NCBI GenBank assembly: GCA_905221605.1
Contig: CAJNDS010002129.1
Location: 62,001 to 126,000, forward strand
DNA from: Symbiodinium natans
Lineage: Eukaryota; Sar; Dinophyceae; Suessiales; Symbiodiniaceae
Reading direction: 5' to 3'
Length of the DNA: 64,000 bases
Position numbers and translations under genes: made by a program. Shown in pieces: positions 8,620-55,137 of this stretch; position 1 is the stretch's first letter, and every line of letters begins with the position of its first letter. A model generated the notes under the pieces. The model was given only the letters and a program-made list of their open reading frames with translations. It was not told the origin of the DNA and did not search any database.

Positions 8620-8925
8620 TCTTGTTGGCTTGGATCCCCAGGCAGGCCTTGAAATACTCCATGCTCGGGGGTTCCCATGGCTCAACACTCGGACTTTTCC
8701 ATCGAAGCGAAACAAGTAGCTGTCATGCAAGGCTCTTGTACAACTTGGCCTCTAAGCTTTCTTGTGTTATGTGTAGTGCTCTGCACTTACGGTGTCGATG
8801 TACATCGTAACTGTGGAACTTCGTTCTCACACATGGCTCAAGGGTCTCCTTTCCGCAGCCTTCCCTTGGAGCCAGAGGACGATGAGCGGCAGGATGTTGG
8901 CCTCGGCTGGGAGAGGGTTTCCTCA
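8620..8925 (-). repeat. 3' LTR of the copia element
   Basis: 306 bp, identical to the other LTR except that a 10-bp segment (AAAATGGCGT) is absent after 8879. In element orientation it begins TGAGGAAACC and ends CCAACAAGA. This is TG at one end, but not the usual CA at the other. Confidence 0.92.
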
Positions 8926-8935
8926 CTCCTCCTCT
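8926..8935 (-). other. polypurine tract
   Basis: In element orientation AGAGGAGGAG immediately precedes the TGAGG start of the 3' LTR, the expected place for the plus-strand primer of reverse transcription. Confidence 0.75.
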
Positions 8936-9006
8936 GTTGTGTCGCCAGGCTCAAACAGCCCAACAATCCAATTTCATCTCTCCAGCCATGCCAACAAAAT
9001 TTGCCT

Positions 9007-10719
9007 TCATTCATTCTTCCAGCGGTGAATCCACTGCGAAATACGATGCTTTGTGTTGATGTCGCTCCACTGCAGATGGGTCTTGAAGTTCAACTCCTTC
9101 CTCCTCCACAGGTAGAGCACGAACTTGAGCTGCTTGGTCGAGGGAAGCACTCTAGAAGGGAACTGGCCACTTGCGAGGTTTGGTGCCAACCGATTGGCGA
9201 GTACCTCCTTTTGTCCTGTCACACAAAGGCCTTCTTCACGGAGTGCCGCCTTGATTTCCTCAACTCTCATCAGCATAACTGTATCTACGCACACTCGTGC
9301 CCTCTCCTCCTCACTTCCTGGCTCATCCCAACTGCTTGTTGCACTCGTAGCCGGAGATGCCAGTAGCTCATCTAAAAAGGTCGGACGATTCGGTGTGCTC
9401 GCATTTGCCTCTAAAACGGCCTGGGTCCTTGTAGGCGTAGCTGGTATCATGGATGTAGCTGGAATCGTGGATGTAGCTGGAATCGTGGATGTAGCTGGAA
9501 TCGTGGAGGTAGCTGGACTCGTGGATGTAGCCCCTCGCATAGTTTCCCCCTCCAATCCTAGCCTCTCAATCTCTTGCACAATTGCTCGCTGGGTAGCCTC
9601 TTGCAGCTTCTGTAGCTTCCGAAGTCTTCGTGGTCCCGTCCCTGGAGTCCATTCTGCCATTCCAGAACCCAACCATTTCAAAGCTTCCCAGACTGCGACC
9701 ACCCCAGCTATTGCCAGCAACACTAGCAACCATCCCAACATATCCCAGTCAACTGACAGCGCTCCACCACCTGATTCTTTTTCAGCCTTAACTCCTGTGA
9801 CCAACAAGCAGCACACCAGGGCCAAAAGCACTCGGGCAGCAATCCTTGAGCTCGAAGGGGTCATAGTTGGCGAACTCACATCTTCAACCACCCCCCATAG
9901 GCTTAGGAGGTCTCCAATTCTCTGGGCCGCCAATGGTTTCGTCAGAAGATCCGCCCTTTGGAACTTCCCAGCACAATGTTGTATGGAGAAGGTCTCGGCA
10001 TCCAGTTGCTCTTGCATCCAGCCTGCCTTTATACGAAGATGTCTTGTTCTCCATCCCCCATTTCCGGTTGAAATCGCCAACGCCGAAGTACTGTCGGTGT
10101 TTACAGTTCTTGTTGACACCCGCATGTCCACATCCTGCAGTAAAGCTTCCACCCCAAGGGTTGCGACCGCGCCGTCCAACAGGGCAATGAGTTCGCTCTC
10201 CGCCGTGGAGAGCGAGATCACGGGTTGACGACCAGAGCGCCATACTATTGCCGATCCGCCCCAAAACACCACCCAACCTGAGTGTGATCTTCCAGATTCC
10301 GGGGCGTATGCAGCATCACAGTACAAAGAAAGGTCTGTGCCGTCGTAAGCGATTGTCAGCTGCCGTCCCAATGTTCGCTGAAGGTAACCCAAAGTTTTGG
10401 TTGCAATAGCTATCACCCGAGCAGGTGCCTTCGTCGTCAAAGCCGACATTAGTGAGGTCGCAAACGACAAGTCAGGGCGACTCCTCTGGGAAACCCATAG
10501 GAGCTCACCAGTGAGCTGTTGGGCAAGGTGGACGTCGAAGTCGTTAGGCGGAGAATCACTTTCCAACACAGCAAACGATGCTGTATCCTTGCTCAGCGGG
10601 ATTCGGTCCTGTTGGGTGGCAGGTATTCTTCTTGCCCTCAACAATTCCCTGATGTAGGCCTCCTGGGTGATGCCGAAAGACTGCTGTCGTCCTTCTTGTA
10701 GGCATATTTCCATTCCCAA
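9007..10719 (-). CDS. copia polyprotein, C-terminal part: RT end, RNase H, membrane and SAP-like tail
   Basis: 570 codons continuing the RT frame after an in-frame TAA at 10,756-10,758. RNase H is at residues 128-262 with acidic residues D135 (YCDAAY), E176 and D209, then HCAGKFQRADLLTKPL, the usual end of a copia polyprotein. About 300 further residues follow: hydrophobic segments near 293-311 and 327-347, a charged coiled-coil-like stretch (364-388), tandem PATSTI repeats (402-428) and a SAP-like helix-turn-helix (MRVEEIKAALREEG..., 483-512), ending in a basic, Trp-rich tail. Most copia polyproteins stop after RNase H, so this tail is an accessory module, perhaps for membrane or chromatin attachment. 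That role is inferred. Confidence 0.85.
   Translation of the reverse strand: MGMEICLQEGRQQSFGITQEAYIRELLRARRIPATQQDRIPLSKDTASFAVLESDSPPNDFDVHLAQQLTGELLWVSQRSRPDLSFATSLMSALTTKAPARVIAIATKTLGYLQRTLGRQLTIAYDGTDLSLYCDAAYAPESGRSHSGWVVFWGGSAIVWRSGRQPVISLSTAESELIALLDGAVATLGVEALLQDVDMRVSTRTVNTDSTSALAISTGNGGWRTRHLRIKAGWMQEQLDAETFSIQHCAGKFQRADLLTKPLAAQRIGDLLSLWGVVEDVSSPTMTPSSSRIAARVLLALVCCLLVTGVKAEKESGGGALSVDWDMLGWLLVLLAIAGVVAVWEALKWLGSGMAEWTPGTGPRRLRKLQKLQEATQRAIVQEIERLGLEGETMRGATSTSPATSTIPATSTIPATSTIPATSMIPATPTRTQAVLEANASTPNRPTFLDELLASPATSATSSWDEPGSEEERARVCVDTVMLMRVEEIKAALREEGLCVTGQKEVLANRLAPNLASGQFPSRVLPSTKQLKFVLYLWRRKELNFKTHLQWSDINTKHRISQWIHRWKNE
9437..9530 (-). repeat. 18-bp coding minisatellite in the copia tail
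   Basis: Five copies of an 18-bp unit (GTAGCTGGAATCGTGGAT on the + strand) encode the PATSTI peptide repeat. The unit length keeps frame. Confidence 0.85.
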
Positions 10720-10755
10720 AAACCTCAGTGGTTGGTGCTGGGATATCAGCTGCAG

Positions 10756-13700
10756 TTACGTTGTCTCCCAAAGACTCTGAATCGCTCGTGCCAATGCAGT
10801 GATTGTCTCTTGAGCACCACATAGGAGAAAATCATCCACATAGATCACTACCACAGCAAGCAGTGCCCCAGCTGGACCAGTGACTGTCCACCATGCCGTT
10901 ACTGCCTTGCCTCGTCGTAGTTGGAGCACGGTGTCGTTCATGGAAACGGTGAGGGATGCCAACTCATGATCCCGGTATGTACCCCACAGCCTTGGCGATT
11001 CCTTGAGTCCATAGAGTGCCCGGATCAGACCCCACAGCTCGAACTCTTCGATCAGCTCCAGACGCTCCAGCAGCTTGGGTGGCTGTACCACCACCACGGG
11101 ATCTCTAGGTGACCTTCCCATAGGAGTTTTCAAGAAAGCCGTCACCACATCCAGGATCCCCACTGTCCACTGATTCTTGCACGTCAGTGTTAGCGCTGCT
11201 CGCACCGCCTCAGCTGGGGCTGCTTCAGTGTAAAGATCCGGGTTGCTGTTCACCGCCATATTGCCACAAACCACCAGTCTGGCCTTTCGCTTGTACCATG
11301 TGGAAGGGTCGCGGAGGTCGGCCTTGTCATTTGGCTTCACCGTGTAGACGAACTTGGTAGGGAGCCGTTGTACTCCCCGCTTCTGCAACCAGCTCGCCCT
11401 TAATGCAGTGCCCTTCTTCAACCTCTCTATGGCATGCTCAATGCTTTGGACCTCCTTGCGAATTGCTGGCAGCCATGCATCGAGCGACTCCATGACTTCA
11501 CGAGGATCAACATTGTGCACCACATCCAAAGGGGCCTTAAGGGAGGCCAGCAGCTCCTCAATTTCACTGGTGTAGCCCACCTCGGCCTTGCTCAACGACG
11601 GAACTTGAGGACCAAAGAGACCATTCGCATTCCCGCCAAGGTTTACCTTGCCATCACCAACTTCCATGAACATCTCCCAATCCTTTTGATCCCATCGTTC
11701 TTGGCTATCTCCATGTTCTGCCCATGTTGGTTCCAAAGCTGTCCCGGTCGCGTCGGCCATGGAGACTGCAGGCATCGGAAAGTAGTATTCTGGTAGTTGG
11801 GATAGAGGTGGTTGGAAACCCAACTCTTCGAGCTCCTTGATCATGGGGTAGTCCATGTGTCCATGACAGTGGGGGGTATATCCAATGACAACAACTCGAT
11901 TTCCCTTCCACTCCATCACCTCATGGGCTCTTCTTGGCGAAAACACGATGCTCTTCCCCTTCACGAGCGGGTGAACACATCCAAACGCTTGGATACCTCG
12001 AACATCAAGTCGCTGACTGAGCTCACCTTGCACCACATCACCAGGCTGCAACTGAACCCATACTCCCCCTCCTACTTGTGGACAAACGATCGGAACCAGG
12101 TAGTTCTGCGATGTGGCATCATTGTTGCTATCCTTGTGAACCTCCCGCTGTGTATTGGTGGAGAGCAAGACCGCGGTGAACGTCGCCTCGGGCACAGATC
12201 GTCGCAGGATTCGGGTAAGGACCTTGGTGAGGTAAGGATGTTCAGCAGTGGTCTTCATCATCCCAACTACACCTCCATGACGGTAAACCCCGGACTTGAA
12301 GTTGTCAAGGAGGCCCTCATTGAACCATTTCTCCACCATCTCCATGTCCAGGTCCTGGTCATCGGTCTCCATGACGTGCCTTGCCTCCTCCTCAAGTGAT
12401 CCCGGGCTCACCCTCTCGACCATTGCAACCCTTGGTTTTACATCCGCCGGATGAGTCTTCTCTCTCAGCCTTGTGGATGGCTTGAGGGCTTCTTCTGCCA
12501 TTAAGGTCGTTGTAGGTTCACCGGGGTCGACAAGGTTGGGCCTCACATGGAAGGTGTGGAAGAAAGTTTCTCCTCTTCCCTCCTCTTCAGGTAAGAAAAC
12601 CACATGGCCTCGATCCAGTAACCCACTCAAGCCCACGTATTTTCCTTTCATCCAACGAGCATCAAAGGTATCGGCACTCCTCCTCGGACCAAGGGCTGTA
12701 TAGGGTCGCTTCTTCACATGGACAGGCGTTCCAAATGGAGCCAACAACGAAGACCTCCATCCCAAGACCCTTGCCCGCTGTTCCGCAGTTGCAGTTTCGG
12801 CTGCAGATGGCCAAAGTCGAACAGGTAGCTCCCCTGCCATCAACATTGTGCGAACCCTGTCCTTCACCCAGCGAACTGTTGATTCGGCATGGCCATTGGA
12901 TTGAGGAATTCCTGATTCTGCCCATGTAGACCTGATCCCTTGCTCTCGTAGCCAAGCCTTGAAGCTCGCCGAGTAGTACTCTCCTCTATCGGAATGGAAA
13001 CGAAGGACTGGTAATCCATGAGCCCCAAGGTACAGGATGACATCTTGAAGGGCTCCCTTAATCGTATTCGCCTTGTTGTTTGGAACACCCACCGCAAAGG
13101 TCAACGATGTCATCTCTGGGGGCCTGCAGTCACCATTCCTCATAGCAGCATGTCCCTTGGTAGCTTCTTCTTCCTCGGTCTCACCGACTTCCTCGGCCTC
13201 ATCATCGGCTTCACCGTCGGTCTTGCCCGGGTCCTCCTCCAGGTCCACCAGATTAAGGCCATTTCCTTCTTGATCCGCATCTTCATCCAAGGACGGCTCA
13301 TACTCCAGGACATCGTCGGGAAGTGGTTTTCCTGGTTCCTCCTCCAAGCGCTCTTGCTCCACATGATGTTCTGGTTCTGGCGAAGGTGTTAGGCCCTCAT
13401 TTGGTGGTGGATCTTTCCCTGCATATGCCCTGGCGAACTCCTTTGGGAAGATGTACTTCGCCACCAGCAGGTATCTGAGGTTGCACGCCGGTGTTCCCTT
13501 GGTAGCTGAGTCCAGACCTGGTTTCAGGGGCCCCGAAAGGTCTGAAGTGAGGACGTAGCTGTCGGGGTGATGAACCCGTGCATGGCGCTTTCCAGTTCCT
13601 CTTGCCATGACACATGTAGCACAGTCCCTCCTGTATGGGAGGTGAGAGGCGTCGACATGCGCCTTCCATTTTTCCGGGCTCATGGCATACACCTTTGGAC

Positions 13701-14268
13701 TTCTGGACCACATGTGGAACGCCATCACCAATGCCTTGACGAAGCCAGGGGACCACCGACTCTGATCCGGACCTCTAGGTTGTTCCTTTGGGACGTGGTC
13801 GCCGGTGATTCCCTCCAATCCTCGTAGGTAAGGCACGTTGGTTCCCAGCGTGGTACTCATTGAGCAGGCCGCCCCTGTACCTCCCTGGTCAAACGAAACC
13901 TCGAACATGCCCGTCTCATTCTTGAAGTCCTTCCAAAGGTTGGTTTCCCACAGGTAGTGGCGATTGTTGGTTGACTCGCCGAAGTGCATGTAGGTGGTCC
14001 TGGATGCTCGATCATGAACCCCACCTCCTTGTGTCTTAGCGCCCCCTTCGTCATCATCATCCTCCCAGCTGCCGCTACAACATACAGCCACAGCATTCTG
14101 CAAATTAAGGACAAGGGTTTCAGCGAGGGGGTCGTAGAGGTAGGTGCGAAAGATTTCCCATCTCTTCCAGGCGGTCCTCCGAACACCAAGTCCACCTTTC
14201 CATTCCTTGCTCCCCAAAGGAGCATTTCCCATGTAGGCGACGTTCCCAGCAGGTCGTGTCCTCGGCAC
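10756..14268 (-). CDS. copia polyprotein, central part: integrase, 2OG-Fe(II) oxygenase-like domain, RT
   Basis: 1170 codons, but the first ~90 are out of frame with the protein; real coding starts near 14,000. Integrase: zinc-binding H204, H209, C216, C219; catalytic D243, D427 (HSDRGE) and E462 (PQSNGHAES). A long acidic insert (about 285-370) separates the first two. Residues 640-805 resemble a 2-oxoglutarate/Fe(II) oxygenase: H711-x-D713, distal H782 and R791 nine residues later, with a GGGVWV strand between. RT: WYKRKARLVV, LDVVTAFLKT (D1040), ALYGLKESPRLW and YVDD (1143-1146). The frame stops at TAA 10,756-10,758 inside RT and continues in the same frame. The oxygenase domain is not a standard part of copia; its substrate is unknown. 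Confidence 0.88.
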   Translation of the reverse strand: MPRTRPAGNVAYMGNAPLGSKEWKGGLGVRRTAWKRWEIFRTYLYDPLAETLVLNLQNAVAVCCSGSWEDDDDEGGAKTQGGGVHDRASRTTYMHFGESTNNRHYLWETNLWKDFKNETGMFEVSFDQGGTGAACSMSTTLGTNVPYLRGLEGITGDHVPKEQPRGPDQSRWSPGFVKALVMAFHMWSRSPKVYAMSPEKWKAHVDASHLPYRRDCATCVMARGTGKRHARVHHPDSYVLTSDLSGPLKPGLDSATKGTPACNLRYLLVAKYIFPKEFARAYAGKDPPPNEGLTPSPEPEHHVEQERLEEEPGKPLPDDVLEYEPSLDEDADQEGNGLNLVDLEEDPGKTDGEADDEAEEVGETEEEEATKGHAAMRNGDCRPPEMTSLTFAVGVPNNKANTIKGALQDVILYLGAHGLPVLRFHSDRGEYYSASFKAWLREQGIRSTWAESGIPQSNGHAESTVRWVKDRVRTMLMAGELPVRLWPSAAETATAEQRARVLGWRSSLLAPFGTPVHVKKRPYTALGPRRSADTFDARWMKGKYVGLSGLLDRGHVVFLPEEEGRGETFFHTFHVRPNLVDPGEPTTTLMAEEALKPSTRLREKTHPADVKPRVAMVERVSPGSLEEEARHVMETDDQDLDMEMVEKWFNEGLLDNFKSGVYRHGGVVGMMKTTAEHPYLTKVLTRILRRSVPEATFTAVLLSTNTQREVHKDSNNDATSQNYLVPIVCPQVGGGVWVQLQPGDVVQGELSQRLDVRGIQAFGCVHPLVKGKSIVFSPRRAHEVMEWKGNRVVVIGYTPHCHGHMDYPMIKELEELGFQPPLSQLPEYYFPMPAVSMADATGTALEPTWAEHGDSQERWDQKDWEMFMEVGDGKVNLGGNANGLFGPQVPSLSKAEVGYTSEIEELLASLKAPLDVVHNVDPREVMESLDAWLPAIRKEVQSIEHAIERLKKGTALRASWLQKRGVQRLPTKFVYTVKPNDKADLRDPSTWYKRKARLVVCGNMAVNSNPDLYTEAAPAEAVRAALTLTCKNQWTVGILDVVTAFLKTPMGRSPRDPVVVVQPPKLLERLELIEEFELWGLIRALYGLKESPRLWGTYRDHELASLTVSMNDTVLQLRRGKAVTAWWTVTGPAGALLAVVVIYVDDFLLCGAQETITALARAIQSLWETT
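11854..12351 (-). other. 2OG-Fe(II) oxygenase-like domain within the copia polyprotein
   Basis: Residues 640-805 of the central frame. They carry the spaced facial triad expected of the double-stranded beta-helix family: HKD (711-713) and H782, then R791 positioned to bind 2-oxoglutarate. NYLVPIV and GGGVWVQL are strand-like. It lies between integrase and RT. The family includes DNA-acting TET/JBP and AlkB enzymes as well as protein hydroxylases. The sequence alone does not say which branch this is. Confidence 0.6.
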
Positions 14269-15740
14269 TGTCTGATGTCCACCTCCAGGACGATGGTTTC
14301 GCCATCATGGGCCTTAAAGAACTCCAGGTGTCCTTCCTCGCCCGCGAAGAGATGGATTGCCCATTTTTTCGCACTCAACAAGGCTCGCCGTTGAGATCTC
14401 GTCAGGTAGGTGACCTTCTTCAGGGTATCCCATCCTCCTCCTGACTCATTCGCTGGTATCAAACCATTGATGCACTCCCCCGGGACTTCTTGCAAGAATG
14501 GCGCATCACGAAGAGCTCGTAACACATGCTCACGATTCCCAGAAGTGGCGTAGCTTAGCATGTACTCGAACCAGGACTTCTCCATGTAGGAAGCCACCCT
14601 TGCGATCCGGTCCTCAGTCTCCAGGGTCTCATTCTGCAGCTGCTCTCGCTTTCGTTCCTCCAGTCGAGCTATCAATGCCAAAGCCTCGGCCTCACACAAC
14701 TGGGGGCACCCGGAGTTGATGTTCAATTTGGTGGTCTCACCTCCTGGGCCGACGAGGATGCACTGCTTAGGTGACCACTGCAGGGTGTATCCCAGAACCT
14801 TCACCAACTCTCCAAGTGGGACTATGGTTTGGACTTGCTCACCCCCAGGTCCCTTCTCTTCTCCAGGTGGCATAAGTAGCGATCCCGCTGTGCTCATTCT
14901 CATCTTGAGCGAGTGACTGCCTGCCAACTGAACCATCACCTCATCCGCCTTTGTCCACTCATCCCAGGTTGTGGCTGTCCGGAGTGCGTGAGTGGCCCCC
15001 GAATCCAACAGAGCTGAGGTCGTTGCCTGTACCGAGCAGACTCTGATATCCTTCACCACCAGCACCTTGGCAGTCGTTGGGGTTTTCTCCGGACTCTTTT
15101 CTCCATCCGAGGTCGGCGATACCACCTGGGCTTGCACAACTTGTTGGGCTGCCTGCATGAGGGTCTCAAGGGTCCAAGGCACGCCTTGGATTGGGAGGTC
15201 TCCACCGTCGCCTGGTGTTGCACTCACGGATGCGACCGCCGGAGCTCGGGATGAAGTCGACCCATCACCCATTGCCCTGGTAGTCGATGACGATGTCGTG
15301 GTTGCCTTGGGCCTCGCTCCCTGCTTGTTGACCAGACAATCCTTCTGTCTGTGGCTCTCCGAACCACACAGCAGGCACTTCCTTGACCGGGTTTCCCGAT
15401 CAAGGCTTCCCATGTTGTGCGAGAAGGAGCACTTAGCGCCCCTCCGGCACCCTGATGGCTTCATGAAGTAGCGGCACATATCAGCAGTCTTCTCCTTCTC
15501 CTTCTCCCTTTTGGGAGGTGTCGGTGCCTCCACAGCTCTCACCCTAGGGCCTGAGGTTGTAGATGTCGTAGTCGCCGTGGTTGAGGCAGCCAGGGTTTCT
15601 AGCTCTGCTTGCAAATGTCGCTGGTAGTCCTGAACCTGCTCCAAGGTGGGTTGGCCGTCAAGACGAAGACTCGTTCGGAGCATGGAGGTTCTGAAAGCTG
15701 CATCTGCAGAGCCGGCGATATGGGCTGAAGTTAAACCCAT
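13857..15740 (-). CDS. copia polyprotein, zinc fingers, protease and methyltransferase-like domain
   Basis: 627 codons. Residues 89-108 form a CCCH finger (C-x8-C-x5-C-x3-H); residues 122-135 a CCHC knuckle (CLLCGSESHRQKDC). LLDSGATH (D246) is the retroviral-type aspartic protease. Residues 460-583 resemble the core of a DNA cytosine-5 methyltransferase: HLFAGEEG (motif I), VLEVDI (acidic ribose ligand), GGPPGR at the motif IV position and FMIEHP near motif VI. The catalytic Cys of PPC is Gly525 here. After residue 582 the frame is lost; the protein continues one frame over at about 13,990. Upstream, the gag frame enters across a TGA at 15,747-15,749, probably a CGA to TGA change. Methyltransferase-bearing retrotransposons have been described in Symbiodinium. 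Confidence 0.85.
   Translation of the reverse strand: MGLTSAHIAGSADAAFRTSMLRTSLRLDGQPTLEQVQDYQRHLQAELETLAASTTATTTSTTSGPRVRAVEAPTPPKREKEKEKTADMCRYFMKPSGCRRGAKCSFSHNMGSLDRETRSRKCLLCGSESHRQKDCLVNKQGARPKATTTSSSTTRAMGDGSTSSRAPAVASVSATPGDGGDLPIQGVPWTLETLMQAAQQVVQAQVVSPTSDGEKSPEKTPTTAKVLVVKDIRVCSVQATTSALLDSGATHALRTATTWDEWTKADEVMVQLAGSHSLKMRMSTAGSLLMPPGEEKGPGGEQVQTIVPLGELVKVLGYTLQWSPKQCILVGPGGETTKLNINSGCPQLCEAEALALIARLEERKREQLQNETLETEDRIARVASYMEKSWFEYMLSYATSGNREHVLRALRDAPFLQEVPGECINGLIPANESGGGWDTLKKVTYLTRSQRRALLSAKKWAIHLFAGEEGHLEFFKAHDGETIVLEVDIRQCRGHDLLGTSPTWEMLLWGARNGKVDLVFGGPPGRDGKSFAPTSTTPSLKPLSLICRMLWLYVVAAAGRMMMTKGALRHKEVGFMIEHPGPPTCTSASQPTIATTCGKPTFGRTSRMRRACSRFRLTREVQGRPAQ
13992..14363 (-). 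other. cytosine-methyltransferase-like domain within the copia polyprotein
   Basis: The spacing FAGxxG ... LEVD ... GGPP ... EHP over about 115 residues fits a Rossmann methyltransferase of the C5-DNA type. The nucleophile position reads PPG, not PPC, so this copy should be catalytically dead if the assignment is right. It sits between protease and integrase. Confidence 0.6.
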
Positions 15741-15886
15741 CAGGCCTCAAACCATCACGGAAGGATCCGGTGGGGCCATGTTGACTGCTCTGCATCGAGC
15801 CAGCCACCGTGGCCAGCTTCGCACCACTCCCAGAACTTCGTCAAGACCTTCTCCGCTTGCGAATTCCGCTGGGTTTTGGGGCTTCT

Positions 15887-17587
15887 TCAGCACTTCTTCC
15901 CTCTCAGCACTTCCTCCCGGTTGGTTCCCGGCGGGAACAGCACCAGCAAGCGGAAAATCATCCTAGGGCAGCTTTGAGTCACTCGCTGACTCACCATGTC
16001 GGTTTTGAGCTCGGGCCCCATAGCAGAGAGGATCATTGACGACACCCTTGCATTCACTCTCACCCACCTTCCTCCACACAATTCGTCGGAGCTCCCTGGG
16101 GATATCTGAAGCCTTTCCAATGGTGTCGCCGCCAGCCACCTTGAATAGGTGGCATTCACCTTGCTCATGAGGGAGTTCCACCAGAGGCCTGAGTTCTCAC
16201 TCACATCCGCCATGATTGATGATGTCACCTCCAGCCAGTCCTGCAGCTGTAAAGCAGCCGCGCCTGCTCCGTCCTTCGTCTTCAACTCAGGCAATGGTGA
16301 CAGGGCCAGAGTGCCCGGCTTCACCTGCTCGGTGGTGGTTGGAGATGTTGCCCCCTTTGCCATGGCCTGTGCCTGCAAGTCCTGCAACTGCTTCATGCCC
16401 TTTGCCAGCATCTCCAATACCGGTGTCTCAGCTCTTTTTTCAGAAGATTCGGGTGGCGGTGTAGGGGACCTAGTCCGGGGCCCGAGCAGGGATTGCAAGA
16501 AGCCTGCGGGCTGTTGGGACTGTTCAAATCCCATCGTAGTCCTTCCCTGCCGCTGCTCCTGAGTCCTGTTCTCCTGAGGTTCTGATCTTCCTGATGTAGT
16601 TGCCGGGGGAACAGTCCGACTTGGAGGCTCGGCAGAAGGTCGTGCACCATGATCTGGATCAGTTAGGGGTACTCCAGGGCCTAATACTCCTCCTGGGATG
16701 AGGGGTTCATAGCCTGGAACTCGTCCAGGTACTCCCATGCTTGTTGACTCCCGGGTGATTTGAGGAGTAGATGGCCCTGTACCTTGCGCCCCATTTTGCA
16801 ATTCTCTTGCACTGACCAAAGCCTGCTCCAACTCCACGTTTCGCTGCTCAGCTGTCTGAAGCCTTTGCAAAATATCGCCGAGTTGCCTTTGGACTTCAGC
16901 TTGGATCGCCTCCTGCGGGATACTTGATGAGCTCGGCGGTGTGGGCGAGGTAACAGGTCGAGGCACTGGGCCCCGGATAGTGAACGCAGCACCTCCAGGG
17001 GGCGAGTGATGGGAGGCCTGGCTTCCTCCCAAGGGACTCGGATACATGTCGTTGCCCGCTACAACTGTCAGATATGAACTTAGCCTTGACACCCAGGCTG
17101 GCATCTCAAGACCAGCCAACCATTGCTGATTTCCCCCCAAAGTAGAGCGGGTTGAGCGGGGCGTCACAAAACCAGTCTGAGCTATCTGCCCACTCCCAGA
17201 AATCATTGTGTTGCGATCGGCTCCGCCGAGGTCAAGATTCGTCGTAGCTCTTCGGCCACCCGCCTGATCCTGCCTCGATGCGACTTCCCGGTCCAGCACA
17301 TTTCCAGCAGCTTGTAGTTCCGGCGAGGTCCCAGGTGGATCTGCAAACGATACTGCATCATCCATTGTACCATAGGTGCCCCTTTCTGCCTGCAGAATTT
17401 CAGCTCCAGACACTGTCGTCGATTCTTGTCCAAGTTGCTCGCTGCTTGGCGACAGAACATGCCCTGGATCCACACCATTCACCAGGGGCTCTTGCGGATG
17501 CACAGCACCAGTTTGGGCTAGCATAACCTCTTGTTGGCTTGGATCCCCAGGCAGGCCTTGAAATACTCCATGCTCGGGGGTTCCCAT
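15887..17587 (-). CDS. copia Gag-like N-terminal region
   Basis: 566 codons starting with ATG inside the 5' LTR (17,587) and reading out of it. The first 220 residues are Pro/Ser/Gly-rich and without clear structure; residues 223-264 are coiled-coil-like; residues 445-560 (LQDWLEVTSSIMADVSENSG...) match the helical capsid-type region of dinoflagellate copia Gags. The frame ends early at GKKC. The expected continuation (LKKPQNPAEFASGEGLDEV) is in the next frame, so a frameshift lies near 15,890. Confidence 0.78.
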   Translation of the reverse strand: MGTPEHGVFQGLPGDPSQQEVMLAQTGAVHPQEPLVNGVDPGHVLSPSSEQLGQESTTVSGAEILQAERGTYGTMDDAVSFADPPGTSPELQAAGNVLDREVASRQDQAGGRRATTNLDLGGADRNTMISGSGQIAQTGFVTPRSTRSTLGGNQQWLAGLEMPAWVSRLSSYLTVVAGNDMYPSPLGGSQASHHSPPGGAAFTIRGPVPRPVTSPTPPSSSSIPQEAIQAEVQRQLGDILQRLQTAEQRNVELEQALVSARELQNGAQGTGPSTPQITRESTSMGVPGRVPGYEPLIPGGVLGPGVPLTDPDHGARPSAEPPSRTVPPATTSGRSEPQENRTQEQRQGRTTMGFEQSQQPAGFLQSLLGPRTRSPTPPPESSEKRAETPVLEMLAKGMKQLQDLQAQAMAKGATSPTTTEQVKPGTLALSPLPELKTKDGAGAAALQLQDWLEVTSSIMADVSENSGLWWNSLMSKVNATYSRWLAATPLERLQISPGSSDELCGGRWVRVNARVSSMILSAMGPELKTDMVSQRVTQSCPRMIFRLLVLFPPGTNREEVLRGKKC

Positions 17588-17844
17588 GGCTCAACACTCG
17601 GACTTTTCCATCGAAGCGAAACAAGTAGCTGTCATGCAAGGCTCTTGTACAACTTGGCCTCTAAGCTTTCTTGTGTTATGTGTAGTGCTCTGCACTTACG
17701 GTGTCGATGTACATCGTAACTGTGGAACTTCGTTCTCACACATGGCTCAAGGGTCTCCTTTCCGCAGCCTTCCCTTGGAGCCAGAGGAAAAATGGCGTCG
17801 ATGAGCGGCAGGATGTTGGCCTCGGCTGGGAGAGGGTTTCCTCA
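17529..17844 (-). repeat. 5' LTR of the copia element
   Basis: 316 bp. Contains the promoter-proximal region by position, but no TATA box was recognised. It holds the start codon of the Gag frame. The following bases (GGTTATGCTAGCCC in element orientation) are where a primer-binding site should be; I could not match them to a tRNA. Confidence 0.92.
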
Positions 17845-17901
17845 ACCCTAAACCCTAAACCCTAAACCCTAAACCCTAAACCCTAAACCCTAAACCCTAA
17901 A
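17845..17901 (-). repeat. CCCTAAA array, right half of the copia target site
   Basis: Eight perfect units directly following the LTR. Its left half is 8599-8619. Confidence 0.95.
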
Positions 17902-52974: not shown

Positions 52975-55137
52975 CCAACCCCAGGGTGCCCAACCCCAGA
53001 GTGTCCCTGGAGTGGCCAACCCCAAGACAGTTCCCTGGAGTGGCCAACCCCAGAGTGTCCCTAGAGTGCCCAACCCCAAAGTGTCAGTGGAGTGCCCAAC
53101 CCAGAGTGTCCCTGGAGTGCCCAACCCCAGAGTGTCCCTGGAGTGCCCAACCCAAGAGCGTCCCTAGAGTGCCCAACCCCAAAGTGTCCCTAGAGCGCCC
53201 AACCCCAAAGTGTCCCTGGAGTGCCCAACCCAAGAGCGTCCCTGGAGTGCCCAACCCCAAAGTGTCCCTAGAGCGCCCAGCCCCCAAAGTGTCCCTGGAG
53301 CGCCCAACCCAAGAGCGTCCCTGGAGTGCCCAACCCCAAAGTGTCCCTAGAGCGCCCAACCCCAAAGTGTCCCTGGAGTGCCCAACCCAAGAGCGTCCCT
53401 GGAGTGCCCAACCCCAAAGTGTCCCTAGAGCGCCCAACCCCAAAGTGTCCCTGGAGTGCCCAACCCAAGAGCGTCTGGAGTGCCCAACCCCAAAGTGTCC
53501 CTAGAGCGCCCAACCAAAGTGTCCTGAGTGCCCAATCCCTAGTGCCCAAAAGTGTCCCTAGAGCGCCCAACCCCAGAGTGTCCCTGGAGTGCCCAACCCA
53601 AGAGCGTCCCTGGAGTGCCCAACCCCAAAGTGTCCCTAGAGCGCCCAACCCCAAAGTGTCCCTGGAGTGCCCAACCCAAGAGCGTCCCTGGAGTGCCCAA
53701 CCCCAAAGTGTCCCTAGAGCGCCCAACCCCAAAGTGTCCCTGGAGTGCCCAACCCAAGAGCGTCCCTGGAGTGCCCAACCCCAAAGTGTCCCTAGAGCGC
53801 CCAGCCCCCAAAGTGTCCCTGGAGCGCCCAACCCAAGAGCGTCCCTGGAGTGCCCAACCCCAAAGTGTCCCTAGAGCGCCCAACCCCAAAGTGTCCCTGG
53901 AGTGCCCAACCCAAGAGCGTCCCTGGAGTGCCCAACCCCAAAGTGTCCCTAGAGCGCCCAGCCCCCAAAGTGTCCCTGGAGCGCCCAACCCAAGAGCGTC
54001 CCTGGAGTGCCCAACCCCAAAGTGTCCCTAGAGCGCCCAACCCAAAAGTGTCAACCCAAGAGCGTCCCTGGAGTGCCCAACCCCAAAGTGTCCCTAGAGC
54101 GCCCAACCCCAAAGTGTCTCTGGAGTGGAGTGCCCAACCCCGTCCTGGGTGCAAAACCCCAAAGTAGTCCCTAGAGCGCCAGCCAACGTGCCTGGAGCGC
54201 CCACCCAAGAGCGGTCCCTGTGCCCAACCAAAGGTCCCTAGACTCCAACCCAAGCGCCCTGCCCAACCCAAGAGCGTCCCTGGAGTGCCCAACCCCAAAG
54301 TGTCCCTAGAGCGCCCAGCCCCCAAAGTGTCCCTGGAGCGCCCAACCCAAGAGCGTCCCTGGAGTGCCCAACCCCAAAGTGTCCCTAGAGCGCCCAACCC
54401 CAAAGTGTCCCTGGAGTGCCCAACCCAAGAGCGTCCCTGGAGTGCCCAACCCCAAAGTGTCCCTAGAGCGCCCAACCCCAAAGTGTCCCTGGAGTGCCCA
54501 ACCCAAGAGCGTCCCTGGAGTGCCCAACCCCAAAGTGTCCCTAGAGCGCCCAACCCCAAAGTGTCCTGGAGTGCCCAACCCAAGAGCGTCCCTGGAGTGC
54601 CCAACCCCAAAGTGTCCCTAGAGCGCCCAACCCCAAAGTGTCTCTGGAGTGCCCAACCCAAGAGCGTCCCTGGAGTGCCCAACCCCAAAGTGTCCCTAGA
54701 GCGCCCAGCCCCCAAAGTGTCCCTGGAGCGCCCAACCCAAGAGCGTCCCTGGAGTGCCCAACCCCAAAGTGTCCCTAGAGCGCCCAGCCCCCAAAGTGTC
54801 CCTGGAGCGCCCAACCCAAGAGCGTCCCTGGAGTGCCCAACCCCAAAGTGTCCCTAGAGCGCCCAGCCCCCAAAGTGTCCCTGGAGCGCCCAACCCAAGA
54901 GCGTCCCTGGAGTGCCCAACCCCAAAGTGTCCCTAGAGCGCCCAACCCCAAAGCGTCCCTGGAGTGCCCAACCCAAGAGCGTCCCTGGAGTGCCCAACCC
55001 CAAAGTGTCCCTAGAGCGCCCAACCCCAAAGTGTCCCTGGAGTGCCCAACCCAAGAGCGTCCCTGGAGTGCCCAACCCCAAAGTGTCCCTGGAGTACCCA
55101 ACCCCAGAGTGTCCCTGGCGCCCAACCGCAGAGTATC
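52975..55137. repeat. minisatellite with 26-bp unit in 78/79-bp trimers
   Basis: Three 26-27-bp variants recur in order: TGGAGTGCCCAACCCCAAAG..., TAGAGCGCCCAACCCCAAAG... and TGGAGTGCCCAACCCAAGAG..., each ending GTCCC. The array has about 80 units; 54,120-54,260 is degenerate. Because 78 is a multiple of three, long open frames appear on both strands (about 26-residue peptide repeats). A real protein is possible but not supported by any start, splice or composition signal outside the array. Confidence 0.95.

Follow-up and report, generated by a model that had tools for sequence, protein, structure and literature searches.

Can a retrotransposon carry enzymes that alter the chemical marks of nucleic acids, and do such enzymes keep the residues needed for activity? 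The question is raised by a locus of the dinoflagellate Symbiodinium natans, of which we analysed 64,000 nucleotides (the window hereafter: contig CAJNDS010002129.1 of assembly GCA_905221605.1, positions 62,001 to 126,000). Its minus strand holds a Ty1/copia long terminal repeat (LTR) retrotransposon in which a first-pass annotation had seen a DNA-methyltransferase-like domain between protease and integrase, and a 2-oxoglutarate (2OG)-Fe(II) oxygenase-like domain between integrase and reverse transcriptase (RT). Both domains are present, their order and sequence are conserved among relatives, and the predicted fold of the oxygenase is that of its superfamily. Judged from protein sequences, the element represents a Copia lineage in which a conserved oxygenase is embedded together with a methyltransferase-like domain that has degenerated. 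We consider it probable that its Gag-Pol polyprotein, known from Symbiodiniaceae where the organism is named, combines a putative base-oxidising oxygenase retaining all cofactor residues with a methyltransferase-like pseudo-enzyme of the DNMT3L type.

Two additional domains in a Copia polyprotein

The domains follow each other as protease, methyltransferase-like domain, integrase, oxygenase and RT. The motifs reported earlier (FAGxxG...GGPP...EHP and HxD...H...R) were found where they had been placed:

8623..17844, minus strand: complete Ty1/copia LTR retrotransposon, 9,222 bp (LTRs, domain order, homologues)
13810..14375, minus strand: C5-methyltransferase-like domain (GGPPGR), without catalytic cysteine (motifs, homologues, weak fold match)
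14,331-14,354, minus strand: motif HLFAGEEG
14,163-14,180, minus strand: motif GGPPGR
14,001-14,012, minus strand: motif IEHP
11803..12372, minus strand: Fe(II)/2OG oxygenase domain (predicted fold, alignment, motifs)
12,121-12,138, minus strand: motif HKDSNN, containing H-x-D
11,917-11,934, minus strand: motif RRAHEV, containing the distal histidine
11,875-11,904, minus strand: motif GNRVVVIGYT, containing the arginine

The predicted structure of the oxygenase domain is a double-stranded beta-helix of the Fe(II)/2OG oxygenase type, in agreement with the first assignment. Among the best 1,000 chains of Foldseek, from which the structural matches to both domains were drawn, the closest solved structure is the TET-like dioxygenase NgTET1, and FTO and AlkB-type structures are also found among the best matches. 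The iron triad H-x-D/E...H and the 2OG-binding arginine are kept in every protein covering each residue (46/46, 46/46, 40/40 and 39/39), down to relatives at 38-72% identity to the window domain. Such retention argues against an improbable reading in which both domains have no enzymatic role and serve Pol as spacers or structural elements of ancient fold; it would otherwise be favoured by the lost nucleophile of the methyltransferase-like domain and by a relative possibly devoid of the oxygenase (P0033). The oxygenase is likely a competent Fe/2OG enzyme.

Assignment of the oxygenase to TET by sequence failed. The profile comparison by hhalign with NgTET1, one member of TET/JBP, was weak, and none of the 20 element domains had a Pfam match, the gathering score of 2OG-FeII_Oxy_3 included; this family scored only in the distant relative P0053 (16.5 bits for a cutoff of 27). 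PHD2 likewise scored weakly, and E. coli AlkB, as representative of the AlkB family, gave no sequence match. A narrower oxygenase profile searched by sequence against solved structures returned weak matches without apparent relation. Nothing was found with the oxygenase profile among bacterial and archaeal genome contigs, nor with the window domain among phage records, and no viral contig had both domain profiles.

The methyltransferase-like domain has the place and motifs first described; it does not lie in one frame as then supposed, since a frame change near 13,962-13,974, relative to the predicted protein P0018 (2,857 aa), makes it span two. In the order of its motifs it is similar to C5-methyltransferases, and its predicted model, a possible Rossmann-type catalytic lobe with motifs I, II, IV and VI in order, has a weak likeness to them in fold; the top structural match of the model was DNMT3L with a marginal Z. 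By hhalign, its profile was in register with DNMT3A at motif IV (P 0.0079, 12 columns) and with M.HhaI at motif I (P 0.18, 11 columns), while the match to DNMT3L was not significant (P 0.24); only DNMT3A did better than both unrelated controls, AlkB (P 0.16) and PHD2 (P 0.38). No solved structure was retrieved by sequence with this profile, and PF00145 had no match in any of 15 sequences at E <= 1, so that this Copia domain would escape surveys based on Pfam. The first-pass annotation had taken a lacking fold match, or motifs unconserved in position, as evidence against its proposal; neither applies to the oxygenase, and the fold match of the methyltransferase-like domain is marginal.

The motif order and the weak fold likeness thus stood, and the idea of an active base methylator did not: none of 26 proteins has the catalytic cysteine in motif IV, where G, D or S stands instead, and an ordinary active C5-methyltransferase was rejected on this ground. 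It is therefore very unlikely that both domains are active and paired, cytosine being methylated and the resulting 5-methylcytosine (5mC) then oxidised in the complementary DNA (cDNA) of the element or in target chromatin, despite the C5-methyltransferase motif order and best structural matches, NgTET1 as best oxygenase match and the presence of both domains in one predicted polyprotein. An ordinary C5-methyltransferase also needs room for a target-recognition part, of which there is little here: about 40 residues (P0018 residues 1,235-1,277) separate the integrase zinc motif from the modelled lobe. Nor does the CpG observed/expected ratio of the element (0.61 versus 0.593 in the rest of the window; raw ratios from one copy) display a depletion of the type reported for SymbioLINE-Dnmt in the available part of PMC5890265.

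Relatives and conservation of the domains

Protein searches returned 17 of 1,054, 19 of 363 and 18 of 1,583 candidates, amounting to 53 distinct proteins, many of them short or partial predictions and one (P0001) the window's own. Where an organism is named, all are from Symbiodinium save one protein of Amphidinium carterae. The search for copies with both domains, advised at the outset, was fruitful: both profiles matched 22 of the 53 proteins, the oxygenase alone 26, the methyltransferase-like domain alone four and neither profile one. The relatives carry the two domains in the same order as the window element. Six predicted polyproteins, which could be spliced models, hold protease, methyltransferase-like domain, integrase, oxygenase, RT and RNase H, each covered at more than 75%. 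Chance motifs were rejected on the conservation and on the 22 proteins matching both profiles.

Median pairwise identities, computed on aligned proteins longer than 1,300 aa without the pairs at >=90% identity, were 0.464 for the methyltransferase-like domain and 0.467 for the oxygenase, compared with 0.520 for RT and 0.564 for protease. Two linkers reached only 0.315 and 0.317 and the spacer between protease and methyltransferase-like domain 0.492; the additional domains are clearly more conserved than two of the three spacers. Their distances are also correlated with those of the neighbouring domains (0 of 2000 permutations in each case): r was 0.85 for the oxygenase with both RT and integrase, 0.93 and 0.95 for the methyltransferase-like domain with protease and integrase, and 0.74 between the two additional domains, RT and RNase H giving 0.60 as a comparison pair. 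From these identities and correlated distances, both domains seem to be of old date, to have been passed on along with the element and to be constrained in sequence.

For the domain alignments, removal of near-identical sequences reduced the oxygenase domains from 30 to 25, of which 20 were aligned, and the methyltransferase-like domains from 25 to 19, of which 15 were aligned. P0017 (truncated) and P0010, P0013, P0027 and P0028 (for brevity) were left out of the former, and P0030, P0033, P0034 and P0035, incomplete over the domain, out of the latter. P0033 has integrase and RT and just 15% of the oxygenase columns, which may reflect a loss of the oxygenase or a gap in the gene model. Two distant oxygenase relatives, P0052 and P0053 (301 and 235 aa, one of them from Amphidinium carterae), had no match to the methyltransferase-like profile, and P0053 retrieved no solved structure by sequence; they may represent the domain as it occurs in a host gene or in older elements.

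Possible substrates and known systems

Following cleavage of Gag-Pol by the protease, the oxygenase would be left beside, or fused to, integrase or RT, and thereby close to the RNA and cDNA of the element. It would bind iron and 2OG and could oxidise a nucleic-acid base in this RNA or cDNA or in nearby host DNA, so that a silencing mark would be countered or rewritten inside the particle or where the element integrates. The methyltransferase-like domain would act as a pseudo-enzyme of the DNMT3L type, binding cofactor, DNA or a partner. DNMT3L similarly has a C5-methyltransferase-like lobe without the catalytic cysteine; it differs in not being part of a polyprotein, and its likeness to the window domain is limited to the marginal structural match, the sequence match not being significant. 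Thymine, converted to 5-hydroxymethyluracil (5hmU), existing host 5mC or N6-methyladenine (m6A) in RNA would all be targets requiring no methylating partner. The element may thus edit chemical marks while copying itself, with an oxygenase of a kind able to oxidise DNA, RNA or protein.

That the substrate is a nucleic acid appears to us about an even call. The domain could instead be a protein hydroxylase resembling PHD/P4H, with Gag, integrase or a chromatin protein of the host as its substrate; we hold this to be unlikely, as NgTET1, FTO, AlkB and ABH2 fit the model equally well or better and a nucleic-acid substrate would better suit a polyprotein with RT and integrase. A demethylase of m6A or N1-methyladenine in RNA, shielding the RNA of the element, seems fairly unlikely: FTO and AlkB-type structures rank among the best matches and a functional precedent exists in orchids (PMC9289625, from the text available), against which stands the absence of a sequence match to E. 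coli AlkB. Rather doubtful, finally, is the more specific proposal of a DNA base oxidase encoded by a TET/JBP-like retrotransposon, which would hydroxylate host 5mC, or thymine to give 5hmU, in cDNA or at the insertion site, with the DNMT3L-like pseudo-methyltransferase as recruiter. If true, such an element would contribute to the 5hmU found over repeats in Symbiodiniaceae.

The comparisons below rest on the available parts of the cited papers. PMC9289625 describes a functional AlkB-type oxygenase, with activity in vitro, in Ty3/Gypsy elements of the orchid Phalaenopsis; its survey of 121 plant genomes confined 15 extra domains to Gypsy-type elements. Oxygenase capture by LTR elements is therefore not new in itself, and the window element extends it to Copia and outside plants. 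Both are LTR retrotransposons with an Fe/2OG oxygenase and an intact triad; the orchid enzyme differs in being encoded by a separate open reading frame (ORF) and in its clear homology to plant ALKBH5 (ALKBH5-like 2-ODD), and the portion of PMC9289625 at hand mentions no methyltransferase-like domain. Fungal DNA transposons and Helitrons with TET/JBP, such as Kyakuja (PMC12730594), are likewise mobile and have an oxygenase fold resembling TET, whereas the window element is a retrotransposon whose oxygenase is at best a putative member of TET/JBP; as far as its accessible text goes, a 2025 survey of fungi found no TET/JBP-like retrotransposon.

On the methyltransferase side, SymbioLINE-Dnmt and SymbioDIRS-Dnmt3 (PMC5890265) are also Symbiodinium retrotransposons with a C5-methyltransferase domain. 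They belong to LINE and DIRS, were detected with PF00145 and conserve the key residues, unlike the window domain with neither Pfam match nor cysteine. The abundant Copia elements of Symbiodinium are said, in the part of the paper available, to lack any DNMT domain.

A conserved oxygenase in a Copia lineage offers a concrete candidate enzyme for the question of 5hmU, to which it may be linked. In Breviolum, most repeats are enriched in 5hmU, Maverick elements rather than Copia most strongly, and its function is called unknown (PMC11071213, in the sections available). In a literature search, mostly of open-access papers, no oxygenase turned up as reported from an element of Copia type or of a dinoflagellate; an earlier description could be contained in a paper, cited by PMC11453091, on the Ty1-copia elements that heat activates in Symbiodinium.

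The window copy and its surroundings

The Ty1/copia assignment follows from the order protease, integrase, RT and RNase H (the last by homology to P0018), the RVT_2-type RT and the flanking LTRs. The other features of the element are:

17532..17844, minus strand: 5' LTR, 313 bp, TG...CA (same as 3' LTR save one 10-nt indel)
15887..17590, minus strand: gag open frame, bounded by stop codons and reaching upstream into the LTR (ORF list; tblastn with P0018)
15417..15476, minus strand: CCCH zinc finger (PF18044, E 2.5e-7)
15,336-15,377, minus strand: CCHC-type motif, after the CCCH finger
14988..15008, minus strand: protease motif LDSGATH, which we take to be the aspartic protease active site
12883..13659, minus strand: integrase, with zinc-binding motif, D...D...E core and acidic linker (rve E 0.0014, missing its cutoff)
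13,612-13,659, minus strand: integrase zinc motif
12,883-12,897, minus strand: integrase motif NGHAE
10801..11376, minus strand: reverse transcriptase, RVT_2, residues 965-1156 of the 10,756-14,268 frame (Pfam E 4.5e-13)
10,828-10,842, minus strand: RT motif YVDDF
9924..10374, minus strand: RNase H region, with approximate limits (those of P0018 transferred by tblastn)
9007..9830, minus strand: C-terminal extension past RNase H, to which P0018 also aligns
9,793-9,828 and 9,688-9,738, minus strand: two hydrophobic segments of this extension
9,226-9,291, minus strand: SAP-like motif of this extension (PF02037, E 5e-5, 23.3 bits for a cutoff of 23.9)
8,926-8,935, minus strand: polypurine tract AGAGGAGGAG, directly before the 3' LTR
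8623..8925, minus strand: 3' LTR, 303 bp, TG...CA (LTR comparison)

The window copy is a broken element. It aligns to P0018 by tblastn in three blocks; a further frame change lies near 15,902-15,923, and the frame is interrupted by the stops TGA (15,747-15,749) and, after RT, TAA (10,756-10,758). Despite these two stops and two frame changes, its LTRs are near-identical. The copy may be a recent insertion of an already defective element, or the product of gene conversion or of an assembly error; indel errors by themselves would hardly account for the two in-frame stops.

The flanks inspected on either side of the element showed no apparent target-site duplication. A TTTAGGG/CCCTAAA array (17846-17901) abuts the 5' LTR and a few units adjoin the 3' LTR; telomere-like repeats may therefore have been the insertion site of the element. 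Over the window, at least 35 short arrays of this kind, of 3-16 units each, are dispersed. Elsewhere, a 353-aa open frame on the minus strand (53792-54853), built of repeated GVGHSRDTLGLG-like units, is probably a tandem repeat.
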